A DNA stretch of 11,522 nt, taken from Asterionellopsis glacialis. Its lineage: Eukaryota; Bacillariophyta; Plagiogrammaphyceae; Rhaphoneidales; Asterionellopsidaceae. The stretch is taken from contig WKLE02000179.1 in the NCBI GenBank assembly GCA_014885115.2, forward strand, positions 12,887-24,408, read 5' to 3'. Below the pieces are notes generated by a model. It was not told the DNA's origin and ran no database searches. It saw nothing but the letters and a program-made list of their open reading frames with translations. The position numbers and the translations under genes are program-made. Positions 2,154-11,522 of this stretch are shown in pieces. Position 1 is the stretch's first letter. Every line of letters starts with the position of its first letter.

Positions 2154-2606
2154 AATCCTGGAATTCAAAACGAGACACAAGATTGATACTTACTTACTAC
2201 AGTAGATGAGGAGTCGATTGGGAGCCTACATATACAGTACCATTCGTTCTCGTCGAAAAAAATAGTGAGAAAGGTGAAAAAGAGTCGTCAAGAAGAAAGA
2301 AGGATTACATCAACAGCAATACACACACAAAAAAAGGTGATCACTACCTACACCAAGTGAATCCATTAATTTGAATTGGTGATTGCAACACAACCACCCC
2401 AAAGGTGCATTGCAGTCCTCTATTGCCAAGCAAGAAGCTTACAGGCCACAAAGAGGAAGAGTGTATTATTTGTGGATTGGTGTGCTCTGTGCTTGACAAG
2501 GAGGCTTCATCCTTGGACTGGATTAGGGCATCGAAGCAAAAGTGATTTCACATTAATTTTTTGTTTAGATTGAGAAAAGTCAATCTCTCCTAATCAAATC
2601 ATAAGA

Positions 2607-5600
2607 ATGTGGGCTCATCGACCTCCCAATCGTCCATATGACCCAACGGAACCAGGTGCACCTGCACCTAAATTGTTACCGTCACCTCCCAAGGTACCAC
2701 CTCCACCTCCGACACCCAAGGCATCCAAGTACAGCAGTGTACGTCAAAATGAATTGGAAGAATTGCGTCAACGGGGGTTAGCAAAATTGTTCAATAAGCA
2801 TTTTACGACCGTCACACAACAAATAGCCGCCGAACGTGCCGCGGCTGACAAAGCTCTCAAGGATTTAGAAGCACGTCGATTGTCGGAATTTAAAGAAACC
2901 AATTATGGTGCAACCATTTCCAATTACGATCAAATGGTATTGGAATTGCAAAAGAAACGCGACGAATGCAAACGCAAGGAGCGTGAAACCTTATTGTTGT
3001 ATCAACGATATGTTCATAAATTTGGGAACAAGGCCGGTGCCATGGCTGTCCCCAGTATGAACGATGCAAAGGCATCCTTGGAGGATGGACTACCCTTACC
3101 ACCACTTGTCACCAAATCCGTGGAAGACACCAAAGTCGGATGTCATGTCCCGGATCGTACTACGGAAATTGAAACGAATTTACAAGGGTATATGGATAAG
3201 GGTGGACAACGTCATCCTTCTATACGAGATTTGGGATTGTCGGAAACGTATAAAACATTACAAGATGCCATGGAACAACAAGAACGTGATTTCCTCAAAA
3301 GTAGCACTCTATCCTCCGCCGATGCTAAATCACCTGTAAGACGTCCTAAATTATCACCTGAACCTTTGGTATTACGTGGTCAAAAGCTGGAGGATCATGA
3401 AGAAATCGACGAGGAAGAAATTGCTCCGCAAACTCCAGTAGCCAAGCAAAAGAGCGGTACCTCTTCGTCGTCTGATACCATTGCTGATAATGCAGCTGGT
3501 GAACAAACACCTCTTCCTAAAACAACAACAGACAGTGAAACAATCGATGTTGATGTTGATGCAGCTGTGACTGCCATTAACAATAAAGCTACTACAAAGG
3601 GGGATTCCTCCTCATTAGTACCACCTCCACAACTTGTCGCAAGTACACCAGGATCATCCTCTTCGACATCCGTGGCACATGCCGATTCACCTTCTACTAA
3701 GAAATCACTAACGGCCATGCCATCTGAAGCTTCTACAGCTACGACTGTCAAAATTGGTAGCAGTGCAGATAACAGTGATTCTTCTTCCAGTATCCCTGAA
3801 CATCCATCTTCCAAACAAGAACAACCTCAAAACACAAGTTTTGTAACTTTTGAAGAAAAGTTGACGGAAGAATCACCCGAATCCTCCTCCGAAGATGGTG
3901 ATGACGATGATGATAACTTTTTATCACGAGATGACCATGCTCTTAATGTTTCTACAGATGAAGATATCATGTCCGCACATTCGGCTGTTTCTGGATTAAC
4001 GTCTGTTGAAATTATATCTGATGCGGAAATGAAATTATTAGAATTTTTGCGAACGGAAACAGAAGCTATTCGACAAATGTTGGATGAACAAGAAGAAGAA
4101 GAACAACGTTCTGTGAATTTATCAAGTTCTCCCAATGGGACGAATCCTGCTACTACTGCTATTGGTGGTGATGTTGCGGGATTACGTAGTAATTACGAAA
4201 CATCTTCTTATGCTCCCATCCCTGATGATGCAATCCTATCGGATGATATGAGTGAAACACAACGTGCTACATTGCAAGCAGAAGAAATGGTACGTGAAAT
4301 GCAACGTGTCTTGGAAGAAGCACAAAATGAACAACATGTTGGCAACAATGCAGCAAATTCGGATAACGTTTCCACATGGACACCTACCCAACAATGTTAT
4401 GGTAGTGGAACAACAACAGCATCATCGACGTACTCTCCTACACCAGGAACTCCAGTCTCTCTTGCGAAAGAACCATACCGATTGGAAACCACCAATCCAA
4501 ATGAAGAATGGATGGTCTATTATGATGATCAACATCAACGTAATTATTATCATGAAGTAAATTCAGATGTAGTCCAATGGGAAAAACCAGCTACAGCGAA
4601 AGCTGTGCAACCATCGAGAGGAATTTCAAGTAGTAATAGTACTCATGGTGATGGAACAGAAGATACCACTACCAAAGATGGTACTATTACTGCTACTCCT
4701 ACCGGTATGACATCCTCCTCCACTAGCCAATCACGTGCATCACCCATGACAGTTCGATCCATCAATACAACTGTATCCACAGAAGATCATGATTATGTAC
4801 CATTAAAAGATTACAGTAAAAAGAAAAAGAAATCCTCGTTATCTACTGGAACAGCATCCTCTGATGCAGGTTCTGTCAATTCGTCTTCTATACGAAGTGG
4901 TGCCTCTGGTTCAGTATTGCAACAGCAACAGCAGGATACGAATAACGATGGTACTACTAACGCTACTGCAGCAGCAAGTGTTCATAGTTCCAACAGTAGT
5001 CATAATCCTACAGCAGATGGTACTACTTCCATCATGTCAGGTGTTGTGTCAAGTTCCGAATCACAATTGTTAACGTATGAAGATGTCATGCCTGAAATTG
5101 GCGGACGTCCAAGCTCATTACGTTCTTCCTCTGGTGGTACTTCTACCAACATGACAAGACGTGATTTGTATAGACGTCAACAACGTCGTAAACGGAATCG
5201 CCGTCGTGCTGCCATGCTTGCAGGGACTGTAGTAGCCATGACTGCCAGTGTGTATTGTAAAAAAGAAATTTCAGCTGTTGTGGATGTGCTGGTACCAGAT
5301 AGTATTGAATATCAATTACATCATGTAATGACGAAACATGTTAATTCTCATGTTCCAGCCTTTATGCAATGGACATCTTCCAAGGTAGTAACTAAGGAAT
5401 TACAAGAAAAAATGCAACATGAACAACATTTGAAACAACAACAAGAAGTTGCAGAATTACGAAAACGGCAAGAAAATGAACGTAAGGCTCAGCTTGAACA
5501 AGAACGTAAAGCCAAGGTGGAGGCTGAAAAACAAGCCAAACTTCAAGCCAAGTTAGAAGCCGAACGAAAAGCTAGGGAAGAAGCTGAACTTAAACGTAAA

Positions 5601-6029
5601 CTGGAATCAGAAATACGCGCCAAGTTAGAAGCTGAACAAAAGGCCAAGGAAGAAGCTTTGGAAGCTCAACGGAAAGCCAAGGAGGCAGCAGAGGCTGCTG
5701 AAGCTGAAGCTGCACGCAAGGCTGCTGAAGCAGATGAAGAAGCCAAACGTGCCACGGAAGAAACTGCTCGTAAGGCAGCCGCAGAAGCGGAACTTGCCAT
5801 GGAAGTTGAACGCAAGGCGCATGAGGAAACTGAAGCTGCGCTAGCATTATTGGAAGAAACAACAACTACCGAAGAGCATGATGATAATGAAATTGCTCTC
5901 AAGTATAAGGAACGTCCTTTGGTATGTAATGTACCATTATCATATGTTGTTCCTGGCAAATGTCGTCGGATGGCAAAAGCAAAACCAATTTATGATGTGG
6001 CAGGTCTCATTGGAAGTATGATGCAATAG
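2607..6029 (+). CDS. large WW-domain, single-pass membrane, coiled-coil protein (1140 aa)
   Basis: Function unknown; probably a membrane-anchored scaffold or tether. Visible order: Pro-rich N-terminus (residues 6-38), charged helical segment (~47-135), long Ser/Thr-rich acidic disordered region with a DDDDD run (~430-440), one WW domain (W635, aromatic run, W658, P661), a QQQQQ tract near 772, a very basic stretch (RRQQRRKRNRRR), a hydrophobic segment ~868-884, then from ~929 to ~1090 an Ala/Glu/Lys/Arg helix with ERKA-type repeats, and a compact tail (~1100-1140) containing CNVP, GKCRR and ending SMMQ. The basic run before the membrane segment predicts that the N-terminal part with the WW domain is cytosolic and the long helix is on the other side. 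WW domains bind proline-rich motifs, so self-association with the Pro-rich N-terminus is conceivable. An in-frame TGA at 2571-2573 precedes the ATG, the first in the frame. No intron is apparent. Coding status is very secure; the role is inferred. Confidence 0.93.
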   Translation: MWAHRPPNRPYDPTEPGAPAPKLLPSPPKVPPPPPTPKASKYSSVRQNELEELRQRGLAKLFNKHFTTVTQQIAAERAAADKALKDLEARRLSEFKETNYGATISNYDQMVLELQKKRDECKRKERETLLLYQRYVHKFGNKAGAMAVPSMNDAKASLEDGLPLPPLVTKSVEDTKVGCHVPDRTTEIETNLQGYMDKGGQRHPSIRDLGLSETYKTLQDAMEQQERDFLKSSTLSSADAKSPVRRPKLSPEPLVLRGQKLEDHEEIDEEEIAPQTPVAKQKSGTSSSSDTIADNAAGEQTPLPKTTTDSETIDVDVDAAVTAINNKATTKGDSSSLVPPPQLVASTPGSSSSTSVAHADSPSTKKSLTAMPSEASTATTVKIGSSADNSDSSSSIPEHPSSKQEQPQNTSFVTFEEKLTEESPESSSEDGDDDDDNFLSRDDHALNVSTDEDIMSAHSAVSGLTSVEIISDAEMKLLEFLRTETEAIRQMLDEQEEEEQRSVNLSSSPNGTNPATTAIGGDVAGLRSNYETSSYAPIPDDAILSDDMSETQRATLQAEEMVREMQRVLEEAQNEQHVGNNAANSDNVSTWTPTQQCYGSGTTTASSTYSPTPGTPVSLAKEPYRLETTNPNEEWMVYYDDQHQRNYYHEVNSDVVQWEKPATAKAVQPSRGISSSNSTHGDGTEDTTTKDGTITATPTGMTSSSTSQSRASPMTVRSINTTVSTEDHDYVPLKDYSKKKKKSSLSTGTASSDAGSVNSSSIRSGASGSVLQQQQQDTNNDGTTNATAAASVHSSNSSHNPTADGTTSIMSGVVSSSESQLLTYEDVMPEIGGRPSSLRSSSGGTSTNMTRRDLYRRQQRRKRNRRRAAMLAGTVVAMTASVYCKKEISAVVDVLVPDSIEYQLHHVMTKHVNSHVPAFMQWTSSKVVTKELQEKMQHEQHLKQQQEVAELRKRQENERKAQLEQERKAKVEAEKQAKLQAKLEAERKAREEAELKRKLESEIRAKLEAEQKAKEEALEAQRKAKEAAEAAEAEAARKAAEADEEAKRATEETARKAAAEAELAMEVERKAHEETEAALALLEETTTTEEHDDNEIALKYKERPLVCNVPLSYVVPGKCRRMAKAKPIYDVAGLIGSMMQ

Positions 6030-6530: not shown

Positions 6531-7541
6531 TCATTGCTCCTGCGCCCATTGATTCTTTTTAAACACCATGACCGACTTCGTGAACCAAACGTAGTTATTG
6601 GCAAGATTCCTAAACTTGTCAGACCATTCTTTCTGATACGTATAGCCCAGGCTCTCGAATAATTCAATAATGTACTTGTTTGAGTGATTGTTGATGTGAG
6701 AGTGACCTAGCTGACCGAGAATAGCCCAACTCAAAACAATGCCTTTGGTGTTGTGCCGATGTAAATTTCGAATCAGCATGCCTTCATACATGCTTGGCAC
6801 GTGTTCTCCAACTTCCAACGACACAACCCACTCTCGTTTGGGCAACCCTAGTGGGAAAGTTAGGTCAAAAAATTTAACACTACCGTGTGTGTACTCATAA
6901 ACATTCCCAGCACCATCGTAAGCTTCATAGTCCATATTCGGATGTCGTTGCAAGATTTCCGGTTTGTATTGACCCACACCGGCACCAAAGTCGTTGATGG
7001 AAGTGATGTTTTCTGCAATGATCAAATTAGACAGTTCTTCAATGATTCGTTTGGATCCCAACTTGTGAAGAAGTGGAATGGTATAGTTGCTGTTCAAGAG
7101 AGTGGTCGCTTTTTTTGTGTCAGGCACAAGGCACCACCCACCACGCTCCAAGGTCACTTTTGACTGCTTAGCTCCTACATTTTGGCATTGCATTTTGGCT
7201 TCTCGAAAGCGAGTCTCCAGTTGACGGTTGACAAAGGGCAAAATGACATCGGCGTGTTCATCCATGTACTTGATACTGGCATGAACATCCTCCACAGCGT
7301 ACCATCTGTTGTAGTCTACGTGATTGATGCCATAGTTAATGCCCGATATAGGTGGCCCGATCAATCTTTTGTTGATCCAATCAAATCTCATCTCCAAATC
7401 CTCTTTGGAGGATGTCTCCGGCTGCGTAGTAAAGTTCACATCTGGTTTCGATAGGTTATACAAAACTCTGCTTTGAGAAACAATTAGCGCAAAAGTCCCA
7501 ATGAGGCCGATGATGGCTACGGGCACATCTCCTTTCCTCAT
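6531..7541 (-). CDS. membrane-anchored SAM-dependent methyltransferase-like protein (336 aa)
   Basis: Likely transfers a methyl group from S-adenosylmethionine; the substrate is unknown. The N-terminus has two basic residues, then a hydrophobic segment at ~7-23 without a clear cleavage site, which fits a type II signal anchor with the catalytic part in the ER/Golgi lumen. Sequons at N36, N152, N178 and N285 agree with a secretory location. The Rossmann fold shows motif I DFGAGVGQY at 184-192, an acidic residue after the second strand (D209 in EAYDGAGN), D226 in DLTFPLG, and SLEVGEHVP at 241-249, which resembles the post-I/motif II region of Methyltransf_23/11-type enzymes. The later GQLGHSHINN (276-285) is a further conserved-looking block. 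Residues ~30-165 precede the fold and have no domain I recognise. No intron is seen. The start is the only ATG that places the anchor at the N-terminus. Family assignment is by motif only; it could act on glycans, lipids or small molecules. Confidence 0.85.
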   Translation of the reverse strand: MRKGDVPVAIIGLIGTFALIVSQSRVLYNLSKPDVNFTTQPETSSKEDLEMRFDWINKRLIGPPISGINYGINHVDYNRWYAVEDVHASIKYMDEHADVILPFVNRQLETRFREAKMQCQNVGAKQSKVTLERGGWCLVPDTKKATTLLNSNYTIPLLHKLGSKRIIEELSNLIIAENITSINDFGAGVGQYKPEILQRHPNMDYEAYDGAGNVYEYTHGSVKFFDLTFPLGLPKREWVVSLEVGEHVPSMYEGMLIRNLHRHNTKGIVLSWAILGQLGHSHINNHSNKYIIELFESLGYTYQKEWSDKFRNLANNYVWFTKSVMVFKKNQWAQEQ

Positions 7542-7596
7542 GATTTTGCATATCCATGCGCAGAAATTTCACGTTATTTCGCACTAATTTCAGGAT

Positions 7597-7670
7597 GAAT
7601 CTAACGGGTTAGCGTCATTTTGGCTACTATGGAGTTTTACTAGCAAAAATGAATCTAACCCGTTAGATTC
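7597..7670. repeat. exact 16-bp inverted repeat GAATCTAACGGGTTAG / CTAACCCGTTAGATTC
   Basis: The arms are 7597-7612 and 7655-7670 and match exactly over 16 bases. Each arm is itself a small palindrome, CTAAC-NN-GTTAG, with centre GG in the left copy and CC in the right. They lie 56 to 130 bases upstream of the minus-strand ATG. This may be a paired operator-like site or the terminal repeats of a very small MITE-like element. Confidence 0.75.
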
Positions 7671-7688
7671 ATTTTACTAGTAAAACTC
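7632..7688. repeat. 57-bp near-perfect palindrome (hairpin)
   Basis: The left arm runs from GAGTTTTACTAG at 7632 to CTAAC at 7659; the right arm runs from GTTAG at 7662 to CTAGTAAAACTC at 7688; the centre is CC at 7660-7661. The arms are 28 and 27 bases and differ by one extra A and one C/T change. The left stem overlaps the right arm of the 16-bp inverted repeat. Such structures are typical of MITE ends or foldback elements. No target-site duplication was identified. Confidence 0.85.
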
Positions 7689-7761
7689 ACGTACCTGGTA
7701 CTTTTTTTTCTACTGGTAATCAACAGGTACACTTCTGTTCCTGTTCTCTTAATGAATGAAG

Positions 7762-7832
7762 ATCCACCGTATACTCACCAACCGTCCAAATGGGTATCCA
7801 CCGTATACTCATCGCCAACGGTCCAAATGGGG
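7762..7832. repeat. tandem direct repeat, two units of 34 and ~37 bp, with a degenerate echo
   Basis: Unit 1 (7762-7795) and unit 2 (7796-7832) both read ATCCACCGTATACTCA, a short variable part with CCAAC, then GTCCAAATGGG. Unit 2 has about three extra bases in the middle. The sequence GGTCCAAAacGGTATCCA at 7922-7939 matches the unit junction with three differences, and AAAACGGTAT occurs twice more (7927-7936, 7944-7953). Short repeats just outside a transposase gene often are subterminal transposase-binding repeats; that is an inference here. Confidence 0.75.
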
Positions 7833-8353
7833 CAATAAAATTCATCTCCACATTATTGATAGTGCTGGGATAAATCATCAGATTATCGGCACTTGGTTAG
7901 AATAAGCTATAAGTATGAAAAGGTCCAAAACGGTATCCAGAGAAAAACGGTATGTTTGGAATTTGCAAAAGTACATTACCTCTATCTAGTCTGACTACTA
8001 TTTTGACTATTAGAATTACTTTGTACTATTACCATAATGTGTACAAGACATTCCAATAATAAATATGAATATTCCAATATTGGTTCTGGTGTCATCAAGA
8101 TATCTTGTTCCTCTTGTTCCTCCGATCTTTGGAAAATTCGTTCACCAAAATTGTCATTTGGAGTACCCGATGACAAGATGTGATTGTCCCATGCCATCTC
8201 ATGGGTTATCTGATGACAAGACCTCATCCCATATTCAGTGATGTATATGGGGTCACCTATGATGTTCAATTTACTAGGCTTTCCACGTCCATCCATTTGT
8301 AGAGTTTTCATCTTAAAACTCTGGGCTTTGTGAGTCTTGTCACTTTGATCTCA

Positions 8354-8422
8354 ATCATAACAAAGGTAACGGCGGCAACCAAAACAGTAATTGAAAGTTG
8401 CCATTTTGCATAATGCACAACG
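8354..8422 (-). other. C-terminal cysteine zinc ribbon of the transposon protein
   Basis: The frame reads RCALCKMATFNYCFGCRRYL then C, giving CxxC-x7-CxxC-x4-C, with Cys codons at 8419-8417, 8410-8408, 8386-8384, 8377-8375 and 8362-8360. Many piggyBac/IS4-like eukaryotic transposases end in such a Cys-rich ribbon, which binds DNA. A TGA (8353-8351) follows CYD, and the same frame continues 122 codons with polar sequence to the TAG at 7982, so the ancestral protein probably extended past the ribbon. Confidence 0.7.
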
Positions 8423-9239
8423 CCCCTGCAACAAATCTTTTTTTCTATCATGCTTATCTTTTGATTTTTTCTTTACCCCAGAGTACAGGCCAAGACATTC
8501 AGATGCTCTCAATGAGTGAATCCGATACAAATTCAATTCCAAATGTAACGATCTATCTCTTTTTGGAGTACCACCATAACTTGGTGTAGGGGAAATTGGG
8601 ACTGTTCTTGAAACAGGAACACAGCATGTTATCATATGTTATCTATTTGGAGTTGCCAGAGGCAATAGTGTAGCTCTTGCTCTTTCTTGGACTTTATTGT
8701 AAGAAATGAATTCAGATTCTCTTGCGGCTTTTTCAGCTTCAATCAAAAATAAGTATCAAAGGTAATGCAATGATCAATGAAAAGACCATCTAGTATTGCA
8801 TGCTTTTTGGAAATCATAAAGATTATCATGACAATCAACATCATCCTTGGCAGTGAGCATCTGTAATTCACGATGATATGCAACACCATACAGCATCAAC
8901 ATGCAACTTGTTGCTATTGTTTGTGGAGATTGAATGCCAAGGTTTTCTTTGTTGCTGTCAATTAGTTTTGTGATAGTGTCACCCCTTCCTTTGGATACAT
9001 TCATCCAAAGGGAATGTTGATAAGATATTAGGCAGTCACAGGGTGGTAACAGAAACTTAGCATTCATGTCAGGTCCATTGATGGATCTCCACAATTTAAA
9101 ATGATTTCAAAATGCTTCCTCATCAACTTTGTAAGAACTCATCTCAGTAGACATAGTGTCAATAGGAACATCTTTCAATGGTCCATAAGCCCAACTAAGG
9201 TGACTATTGTATAAATAATCCATAATGTCACCATTGGCA

Positions 9240-9712
9240 CTCAACAATTCACCAGGATAGTCAATGTAAACACCATGCATCAAATTTTTTGTATTCCCAA
9301 CAAGCAAGACACCAGTTCTTGCATCATGAGTATAAACATGATGAAGCAATTGCAGATCTTCATGATTCTGAGGTATATACTTCAGAAGATCATCATCCAT
9401 TGCATCAACATGAATATACTTTGTTTCATTAACAATTGTGCTTGCATAATGACTTCGTTGTTGCTGACAAAAGTGCTCTTCAAAATTGCTCCTTTCAGAT
9501 CAAAATGTGTTCAAAGAGACTTGCGCCTTGACTTCAACAGGTATCTTCTCATCATCATCAGTGATAAGAAGTGTGTCAGGAGAGTCTTTGAGATAAGGTT
9601 TCTCTTGATGCATGACTGTTCCAAAAATAGCCTTGATTGCAACTCCTTGTTGACCTCCATCATGATTATAAAATTTGCTTATGAAAAAATTTTCAAGTTC
9701 ATGTCCAAGTCA
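9240..9712 (-). other. PD-(D/E)XK nuclease-like domain (YqaJ / lambda-exonuclease type) inside the transposon frame
   Basis: After a TGA at 9712-9710 the frame reads LGHELENFF, with a Glu codon at 9700-9698 placed like the helix-1 Glu of the fold. About 40 codons on, SPDTLLI (Asp at 9577-9575) is followed 14 codons later by PVEVKAQ (Glu 9535-9533, Lys 9529-9527), the D...ExK pattern. A Gln-containing helix DLQLLHHVYTH (Gln 9352-9350) and a strand GVLLVGN follow, as in YqaJ / lambda-exonuclease proteins. All four signature positions appear in the right order in a single frame, interrupted only by TGA at 9500. The assignment is by motif; a profile search would decide it. Confidence 0.6.
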
Positions 9713-10595
9713 TGCATACTGTAGCTGTTCTTCTGAATTTCCTTTCTCCTGAGGCTTCATGAATGTTGATTTCAAAAGAGAAACAACAACAGGATCAAGA
9801 GGAGGTGCTGCTGGATTGTTGTTGTCAGCAGTGTTCGTGTCTGAATTGCATTTGCTGCTCACAAGTTTTAGTAAATGATTTTGATGTGTCCAAGGTAGAA
9901 TTCAAATTCCATTGTCCTTTGCAACCTTTCTCAACTCATTAACTTTCATAAATGCAAAATCTTGATCATTGATTGGACAATCAACCCATGAAAGGACCTT
10001 CTTTTCAATGGCAGAAATTGTCTTAGGGATGGCTGTGTTTAGTTTCAATAGCATTGCTTCTAAAATGTTTTGATCTGGAACATCAGTTTTGAAGTCAAGC
10101 TTAGCTTGTTCAAACAAATCAGGATCATTTAGCAAAATGATCCATGTTTCAGCAGCTTCTTTGTCTTTGTCTTTGTCTTCTTTGTCTTTTATTAGTTCAT
10201 GTTCTTCATGGGCATTTTCTTGTTCATTGTCTGCATGATCTTCAATTATGTTGTCTTCTTGTTGGTCTGGCAACAAATGAGAGATGCCAATATAGCCAAG
10301 AACAATTTCAAATTGTTATTGAAGTTTATGTTCAACATCAATCCATTTTGACAAAGCTCTTCTCATTGCATCAGTTGTTGATGATGTCAATGAGAATCTA
10401 CAATTGAGAAACCATTCTGCTATGCCTTGAGAAAACATTCTTGGAATTATGTTGTGATTGAGGGCAATATAAGTATCTTCCTCATCTAAATCCATTCCAA
10501 CAATAGGTTGAAATGCTTTTTTGTTTCTGTCTTTATCAGAAGTGTCTCCAGGGTACCATTTTGAATCTTTAGGGTGTCTTGTTAAAATCCTACTG

Positions 10596-11165
10596 CTAAC
10601 CAAAGACAGTGGAAGACAGAACCATTGAAACAACTGAACTTGTTTGGGATCTGTAAGCTGTAGCTGACAATTCACCTTCATGAAATGGCAAAGCTACCAT
10701 TGGAACATTTGCCCATTTAACTTTGTGTTTCAACTCTTGTGTTATGCTGACTTAAAACCATTTGAATCCATGATTCTTGGCTTGTTTTTGTCAGTATCAC
10801 CTCCTTTACAATCCTATGTGTATGCTTTTTATGGTCCCATGAACATCACCACCAGCTTGCAGTACAAAGTTGTATAGAACGTTCATATTCTAATAACCCC
10901 GGTCTGCCATAAATAAAGTGTTTGTTAAGTCTGGCAATCTGCCACCAGTGTCCTGACCAAACATAAATCTTGCTGACCTTTCAAAACACGATTGATGATT
11001 TTCTTTTTCATGTTCAAATGCTATTTGGATTGGCACTCCTGTTGCTGTAAATGCTGTAGTGTGAATTGTAAATCCATGTCTGTTGTCTCTGGTGTGATGC
11101 ACTTTTTTAAAACCTTTGCTCATGGTGTTCCTTCCCCAATTATAGTGCAGTTTGTTATCATCAAA
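10596..11165 (-). other. DDE transposase core region of the pseudogene
   Basis: The frame gives FDDNKLHYNWGRN, with the two Asp codons at 11162-11157, then MSKGFKK, a basic-aromatic stretch, and 85 codons after the second of these Asp the motif ADRGY, with Asp at 10904-10902. The next codon is TAG (10892-10890), which probably replaced TGG, since ADRGYW is the usual form in my memory of related algal and oomycete transposases. It is followed by NMNVLYNF and GGDVHGTIK, the position where piggyBac-type proteins have a GT(L/V)R-like motif, and later by ELSATAYRS. IS4/piggyBac-like transposases share this D...D(R)GY layout. I could not assign the third acidic residue. Around 10745-10835 another frame reads GGDTDKNKPRIMDSNG, so a small pair of compensating frameshifts may lie there. 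Confidence 0.7.
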
Positions 11166-11522
11166 TGTACATAAAAAAGAAATGAATCTGAATCTGAGAC
11201 AAACAAGTCTTTTATGTCTTGGTTAAAAGCATCCTCCATCTTCATCCAAAATTACTTTGGATCTCTTGATTTGCCACAACTTGCGATTTGTTTCCAGATT
11301 CAGCAGTACTCTTTATTTGAAAGGTAAGCATTGGTAGAGACACAGTCATCTGTCTCAAGATTGCTGTATGGTGCAACTTTGTATTGACTGGATAGCTGAA
11401 GTGTTGCAACGAATCTGCAAAATTTTTCATAGTTCATGTCAAGATCCTTTTCAAAAATTTGAAAAATATCACTTGACTTGCCAAACATCTTTTCAAAGAC
11501 TTTGTCAATGTTAGGGCTTAGA

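Follow-up and report, generated by a model that had tools for sequence, protein, structure and literature searches.

We analysed 11,522 nucleotides of the Asterionellopsis glacialis genome (positions 12,887-24,408 of contig WKLE02000179.1, in an assembly of 40.3 Mb and 1503 contigs), referred to here as the window, and found that this stretch carries a dead copy of a terminal inverted repeat (TIR) DNA transposon, whose repeat family is established here. With a probability of about 55%, we read it as a cut-and-paste transposon that inserts into TA and encodes one protein with a probable DDE transposase front half, a YqaJ-type nuclease in the middle and a zinc-ribbon tail. Profile homology and past selection together indicate that the nuclease, of YqaJ/lambda-exonuclease type, is real, and a single ancestral reading frame running through the transposase-like front half, the nuclease and the zinc ribbon is supported.

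Copies of the transposon and their ends

The right end of the element lies in the window, while its 5' part lies beyond it:

7553-11522, minus strand: decayed copy of the TIR DNA transposon, ending on the right where five other copies do; left part outside the window
7553-7700, minus strand: terminal inverted repeat region; the same repeat stands at opposite ends of copies
7551-7552, no strand: TA bordering the right terminus, based on ends read in several copies

Two DNA searches of the A. glacialis genome (at least 17 and at least 6 matches) placed DNA copies of the transposon on at least 12 contigs, that of the window included, and the other copies were 83-91% identical to the window copy. 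A protein search of the same genome added one diverged relative on contig C695 (L062), with 54-60% identity in the matched pieces. The copy on contig C1475 (L033) has both ends and spans 5696 bp, of which ~1 kb (L033 8321-9368) has no counterpart in the alignment to the window copy. Its inverted repeats are ~180 nt long and 82% identical over 136 nt. Two other copies, on C292 (L037) and C689 (L034/L042), have ~4-5 kb of other DNA between their matching parts, probably later insertions.

The ends of the element read 5'-TCC (or 5'-TATCC), and the terminal repeat region in the window contains a 35-nt near-palindrome (7595-7629 / 7638-7672). The 26-base left end matched the genome 16 times at up to 3 mismatches and its reversed pattern not once. 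TA borders all 13 ends that were read (7 left and 6 right, one of the left ends read with a one-base deletion), in an ATAT context at 10 of them; a TTAA target, also considered, was ruled out at these ends by the TA that flanks each one. In the three two-ended copies, one of them the C689 copy split by other DNA, we saw by eye no repeat beyond TA/ATAT. Since TA is found at every end and nothing further is repeated, it is either the target or part of the repeat.

A probable single ancestral protein

Pieced together across frameshifts from 13 loci, none of which spans the whole, the product of the transposon is one protein of ~1250 residues; residue numbers given here are those of this composite. 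The window holds most of its gene:

8075-11522, minus strand: remains of a single protein gene, residues ~103 to ~1248
9710-10369, minus strand: linker of ~200 residues, including the stop at 9904

From 10693 to 7985 the minus-strand frame is broken by stops alone, nine in all (TAA at 10318 and 8641; TGA at 9904, 9712, 9502, 9109, 8776, 8758 and 8353). Over 7990-10693 these nine compare with 39-97 stops in the other five frames, and the best of three frames never fell below 33 stops in 1000 sequences simulated with a first-order Markov model. The segments with the first two putative catalytic aspartates, D1 and D2, are in a different frame from the downstream part (open stretch 10890-11222). 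The preliminary description of this DNA, made from the window sequence, had a single frame from ~10690 to 7982 with stops and no frameshifts; this is true downstream of 10693 and false for the DDE core, which is frameshifted in the window copy. Its boundary at 7982 also had to be moved, as 6 of the 7 copies with data share a terminal stop at the codon where the window has TTG (8075-8077), and 7982-8077 is noncoding in the family. What stands of the proposal that all these parts formed one protein is a single ancestral frame, followed across frameshifts, through the transposase-like front half, the nuclease and the ribbon.

The copies have decayed heavily. The observed/expected ratio of CpG is 0.24 in the element vs 0.76-0.82 in the rest of the window, and is also low (0.31) in the flank of the C1475 copy. 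In the alignment of copies, 100 columns contain both TG and CA dinucleotides, vs 23 for the GT/AC control pair. TGA occurs in some copy at 28 codon columns, and 22 of these have CAA, CGA, CGG or TGG in another copy (a count made with no control). Such patterns are known to arise when methylated CpG is lost from both strands, and the stops fit this.

The stop at 9904 deserves separate treatment. It corresponds to composite residue 640, ahead of the nuclease core, and is common to all 5 copies with data, which counts against a single polypeptide. It could be either early decay in a source copy or a true terminator. In the latter case the element would have two genes in one frame, with a transposase in the first open reading frame (ORF) and the nuclease core and ribbon in a second starting from a Met near 9760. 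Such an arrangement would resemble ISL2EU, for which portions of two papers describe a YqaJ exonuclease on a second ORF, the target A|AT|T and ends that usually begin with GG (PMC4482050, PMC9179366). Our preference is for inherited decay: the C695 relative has Leu in place of the stop and resembles the other copies on either side, though it has other stops nearby. What may be the N-terminal motif of the nuclease precedes the stop in the gene, and TGA is frequent at other codons, fitting CpG decay; on this balance two genes are improbable.

The nuclease domain

The following features, both in the one frame described above, were assigned to the nuclease:

9240-9709, minus strand: nuclease core, with LGHELE at 9692-9709, SPD at 9575-9583 and EVK at 9527-9535
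10370-10429, minus strand: possible N-terminal YqaJ/lambda-exonuclease motif QGxAEWF...LTSSTTD, from the alignment of copy L035 (-3.6 bits, weak alone)

The catalytic pattern G-x-E, SPD, E-x-K is present in order, as in the phage members of the group, with the SPD...EVK motifs spanning 9521-9583. Conservation of the catalytic E, D, E and K across copies, which the preliminary description proposed to check, was borne out: E708, E710 and D749 are kept in 6/6 copies, E763 in 5/6 and K765 in 7/7, and we saw no loss of the site.

The Pfam YqaJ profile (PF09588), also suggested at the outset, does not score, and we therefore built a profile from 15 exonucleases, lambda exonuclease and 14 phage relatives. 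One of the 15, L144, had entered via the nuclease query itself, and the tests were repeated without it. Aligned with hhalign to family columns 640-910, the phage profile scored 32.6 (E 3e-4), a value reached by none of 200 column shuffles (maximum 24.4). Segments outside the nuclease stretch scored at most ~19 and longer or shorter segments overlapping it 27.6-32.3; without L144 the score was 31.5 vs a shuffle maximum of 26.6 (n=200). As a hidden Markov model (HMM), the 15 exonucleases gave 7 of 14 family rows 5.8-10.7 bits, vs at most 4.4 in 300 shuffled composites. Removing L144 left L035 at 10.7 bits and six rows between 5.0 and 7.7; the shuffles then reached at most 5.0. The rows are related copies and hence no independent tests. 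Three of 13 family members were hit by a REase_AHJR-like profile, with E 0.013 at best. The expected match to a PD-(D/E)XK profile was thus found with profiles from phage exonucleases, above all shuffles, though not with PF09588. In the rest of the genome, the only PF09588 matches above cut-off are at G000:C690:61324-61800 and C317:10230-10595.

Compared with lambda exonuclease and YqaJ, the family has the same three motifs in the same order, perhaps preceded by Q..EW...TxS, and differs in having ~180 extra residues between that first motif and the core and in not matching the Pfam YqaJ model. The nuclease may begin earlier than first described, at 10370-10429; the evidence for this start is weak, and an hhalign run with that segment did not recover the motif. 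Searches with the nuclease found no match among PDB sequences. By tblastn there was no significant match in phages and plasmids; the best of 3 phage hits (E 2) was an annotated exonuclease.

Comparison with the C695 relative shows that the nuclease was under selection while the transposon family was alive. Over 65, 63 and 88 codon pairs in three segments of the nuclease, nonsynonymous divergence (dN) was 0.35, 0.28 and 0.34, far below synonymous divergence (dS) of 1.56, saturation and 1.2, respectively. Strong constraint is visible in this comparison alone. Within the family, the three codon positions of the nuclease differ at almost the same rate (0.111, 0.093, 0.101) and pooled dN/dS is ~0.6 in the nuclease (0.09/0.15) and ~0.45-0.6 elsewhere, as expected if most of the decay of the copies came after their insertion. 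We also considered that an unrelated nuclease sequence was joined to the transposon by chance or by insertion into one copy. We found nothing in favour of this, and it is very improbable, as several copies on separate contigs and the C695 relative (53-60% identity in the nuclease pieces) share the nuclease and the C-terminal part in one frame.

The DDE-like front half and the zinc ribbon

Three further features of the protein bear on its activity as a transposase:

10893-11171, minus strand: DDE-like front half, with D1 in CTFDDNK (11151-11171) and D2 in FMADRGY (10893-10913)
8966-8995, minus strand: SKGRGDTITK, with a candidate third catalytic D at 8978-8980, assigned by motif only
8360-8419, minus strand: zinc ribbon CALCKMATFNYCFGCRRYLC, CxxC-x7-CxxC, assigned by sequence and profile; a C/H-rich tail follows at 8198-8230

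D1 (D222) is kept in 3/3 copies and D2 (D308) in 4/4. One long reading of the window matched Pfam DDE_Tnp_1 with E 0.025 and 14.8 bits, below the cut-off of 23. We hold a DDE core in the front half to be probable, mainly because no rival candidate for a transposase is seen in this TIR element. Of 1879 candidate proteins (lengths limited to ~690-2190) searched with the DDE region, none matched even at E 10, and a search of PDB sequences gave two matches without evident relation (E 0.013 and 2.4). A weak match to the DDE part elsewhere in the genome (C57:45608) looked by eye like an unrelated open frame and was discarded. The C695 relative keeps part of the linker, the nuclease, GDTITKL and, partly, the zinc ribbon; its DDE front half was not found by tblastn in the 4 kb read.

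At the level of motifs the protein resembles piggyBac in D2, in GT(I/V)(R/K) ~25 residues further on, in a KGGxDT-like motif and in a C-terminal ribbon. It differs in lacking a PF13843 match and TTAA, and in that its KGGxD-like motif stands ~540 residues after the presumed last strand, with the nuclease in between. Against a piggyBac ribbon profile, the zinc ribbon gave hhalign E values of 0.008-0.015 over 25 columns, and its score of 28.1 exceeded the maximum of 24.2 in 40 column shuffles, but CxxC pairs are frequent in proteins. Its five Cys are kept in 6/7, 7/7, 7/7, 7/7 and 5/6 copies. Profile support for the piggyBac-like motifs reaches the ribbon only, and the rest of the resemblance is at the level of motifs. 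PF13843 (DDE_Tnp_1_7) did not match any of the copies and composites scanned, and a profile of 77 piggyBac proteins gave at most 3.6 bits in hmmsearch. The assignment to an IS4/piggyBac-like group with which the work began is accordingly reduced to a motif-level likeness, no piggyBac profile being significant on the core. The same genome has 49 matches to PF13843, often with in-frame stops, none of them on the contigs of this family.

The position of the third catalytic residue decides how the two domains would be arranged. A profile of the piggyBac D3 region was best placed at 946-960 of a second composite, on the KGRGD motif, with a score of 15.1, which is within the values of 40 shuffles (median 13.7, maximum 21.8); the D2 segment did no better. 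Two of 8 copies have D at position 948, four have N, one has H and one A; D is also present in P0003, which reads SKGGGDT vs SKGRGDT in the window; GDTITKL is kept in the C695 relative. The N may have arisen by CpG decay. If D948 were the third catalytic residue, the nuclease would be nested within the DDE core. Other DDE enzymes carry insertion domains at that place. Nesting of the nuclease in the DDE fold, after the second catalytic residue and before the third, would define a new superfamily of eukaryotic DNA transposons; we regard it as possible but doubtful.

The arrangement could instead be like that of KolobokE, with a full DDE core before residue 460 and the nuclease appended. Portions of PMC9587614 describe a nuclease of this type downstream of the KolobokE DDE domain; Kolobok elements, also reported from the diatom Fragilariopsis cylindrus, are defined there by TTAA duplication, 5'-RR ends and C/DxxH between the second D and the last E (PMC9587614). 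Such a layout is a real contender, if short of even odds. Acidic residues are available between the presumed last DDE strands (~410) and the possible nuclease start (~461), and the placement of D3 at 948 is of shuffle quality, with D in just 2 of 8 copies. However, the gap is only ~50 residues, and the TTAA flanks are absent, as is any [CD]xxH between residues 309 and 470. At residue 501 of the composite there is a DVxH, not present in all copies; it is within the nuclease part and would be inside the core if the core reaches 948.

Evidence against a single DDE-nuclease protein

Besides the stop at 9904, several results weigh against our reading. DDE_Tnp_1 matched neither the shorter reading of the window nor other copies, and on one copy the unrelated Ge1_WD40 reached E 0.003, better than DDE_Tnp_1, so that scores in this range may arise by chance. 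It is on account of this result that we lowered our confidence in the DDE core, in the nesting and in the explanation as a whole to the levels given here. Scans of the copies and composites against Pfam and PHROGs were without a YqaJ or piggyBac match, and the low-scoring matches were mixed (DDE_Tnp_1, Ge1_WD40, MOLO1, TORC_M, BAR_3, ATG14, REase_AHJR-like, Profilin and others). PF09588 in particular did not match several copies and composites even with the threshold relaxed to E 10. In the HMM test, the remaining rows, mostly short partial copies, scored at most 2.0 bits or were unlisted, under the shuffle maximum. Two AlphaFold2 models, with a mean predicted local distance difference test (pLDDT) score of 36.7 and 32.7, were unusable. 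As to decay, CG columns varying to TG or CA (79) were not above the GC control (84). No intact copy was seen in the genome, and outside it we found three short ENA fragments and nothing further, so that the layout is without a check from other named species. One scan each of IMG/VR and GTDB gave no relatives of the transposon.

Proposed mechanism

DDE enzymes need some means to handle the second strand; in Tn7 this is supplied by TnsA, a nuclease of the restriction-enzyme-like class. We infer the DDE chemistry, the function of the ribbon, cut-and-paste movement and the nuclease substrate. In the mechanism we propose, the zinc ribbon and the N-terminal part would bind the terminal repeats, and the DDE core would nick and join the 3' ends. 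The nuclease, in cis, would act on the donor flank or on the complementary 5' strands by cutting or trimming them, a part played in Tn7 by TnsA alongside TnsB. The portions of PMC8188705 that deal with Tn7-like TnsAB describe natural fusions of endonuclease and DDE transposase in one protein, in which mutants of the TnsA site give cointegrates instead of simple insertions (PMC8188705). The window element is like TnsAB, which comes from CRISPR-associated bacterial transposons, in this proposed working; the two were compared by function, not by sequence. If the nuclease is nested, one chain would do the jobs of TnsA and TnsB, with each active site beside the other at the transposon end, a new answer to the second-strand problem of a DDE enzyme.

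The nuclease might also act only after excision, by 5'-3' resection of the donor break in the manner of lambda exonuclease, with homologous repair restoring the element and a copy thereby gained. The profile match is to lambda exonuclease and YqaJ, whose phage members act in recombination, and several of the phage exonuclease genes we fetched adjoin RecT, Erf or Bet annotations. We noticed no annealing protein in the element, and consider such a role rather unlikely.

Relation to known elements

The preliminary description knew of no characterised transposon with this layout; KolobokE, ISL2EU and TnsAB already pair a nuclease with a DDE transposase. With ISL2EU the window element would share the DDE transposase, the YqaJ exonuclease and a short target made of A and T. 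Unlike ISL2EU, with its second ORF, GG ends and AT target, it probably encodes one polypeptide, is flanked by TA and has no GG ends. From Kolobok, compared by its published definition alone, it differs in its TA flanks and 5'-TCC (or 5'-TATCC) ends. Having neither the TTAA, ends and C/DxxH of Kolobok nor the GG ends and AT target of ISL2EU, it lies outside both groups as defined. None of the titles and abstract openings covered in the (mostly open-access) literature, which did not extend to Repbase, describes this family. What looks new is the transposon family itself and the arrangement of its parts along the protein, while the pairing of DDE transposase and such a nuclease is already known; the transposon is perhaps a new superfamily, a matter that one genome cannot decide.

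Nucleases recur beside DDE transposases, as TnsA, KolobokE and ISL2EU illustrate, and the role of the eukaryotic ones is unclear. Were both active sites to sit in one polypeptide of a family outside those groups, a single construct would suffice to test this question.

Neighbouring open frames

A minus-strand open frame of 336 amino acids occupies 6534-7541, and its ATG (7541-7539) stands 11 nt downstream of the right end of the element at 7553; a Pfam scan of this frame up to E 0.1 was empty. Farther along the window, 2574-6029 is an open frame of 1151 residues whose repeats abound in K, E and A; its WW domain match, at E 0.0027, is below the Pfam cut-off.

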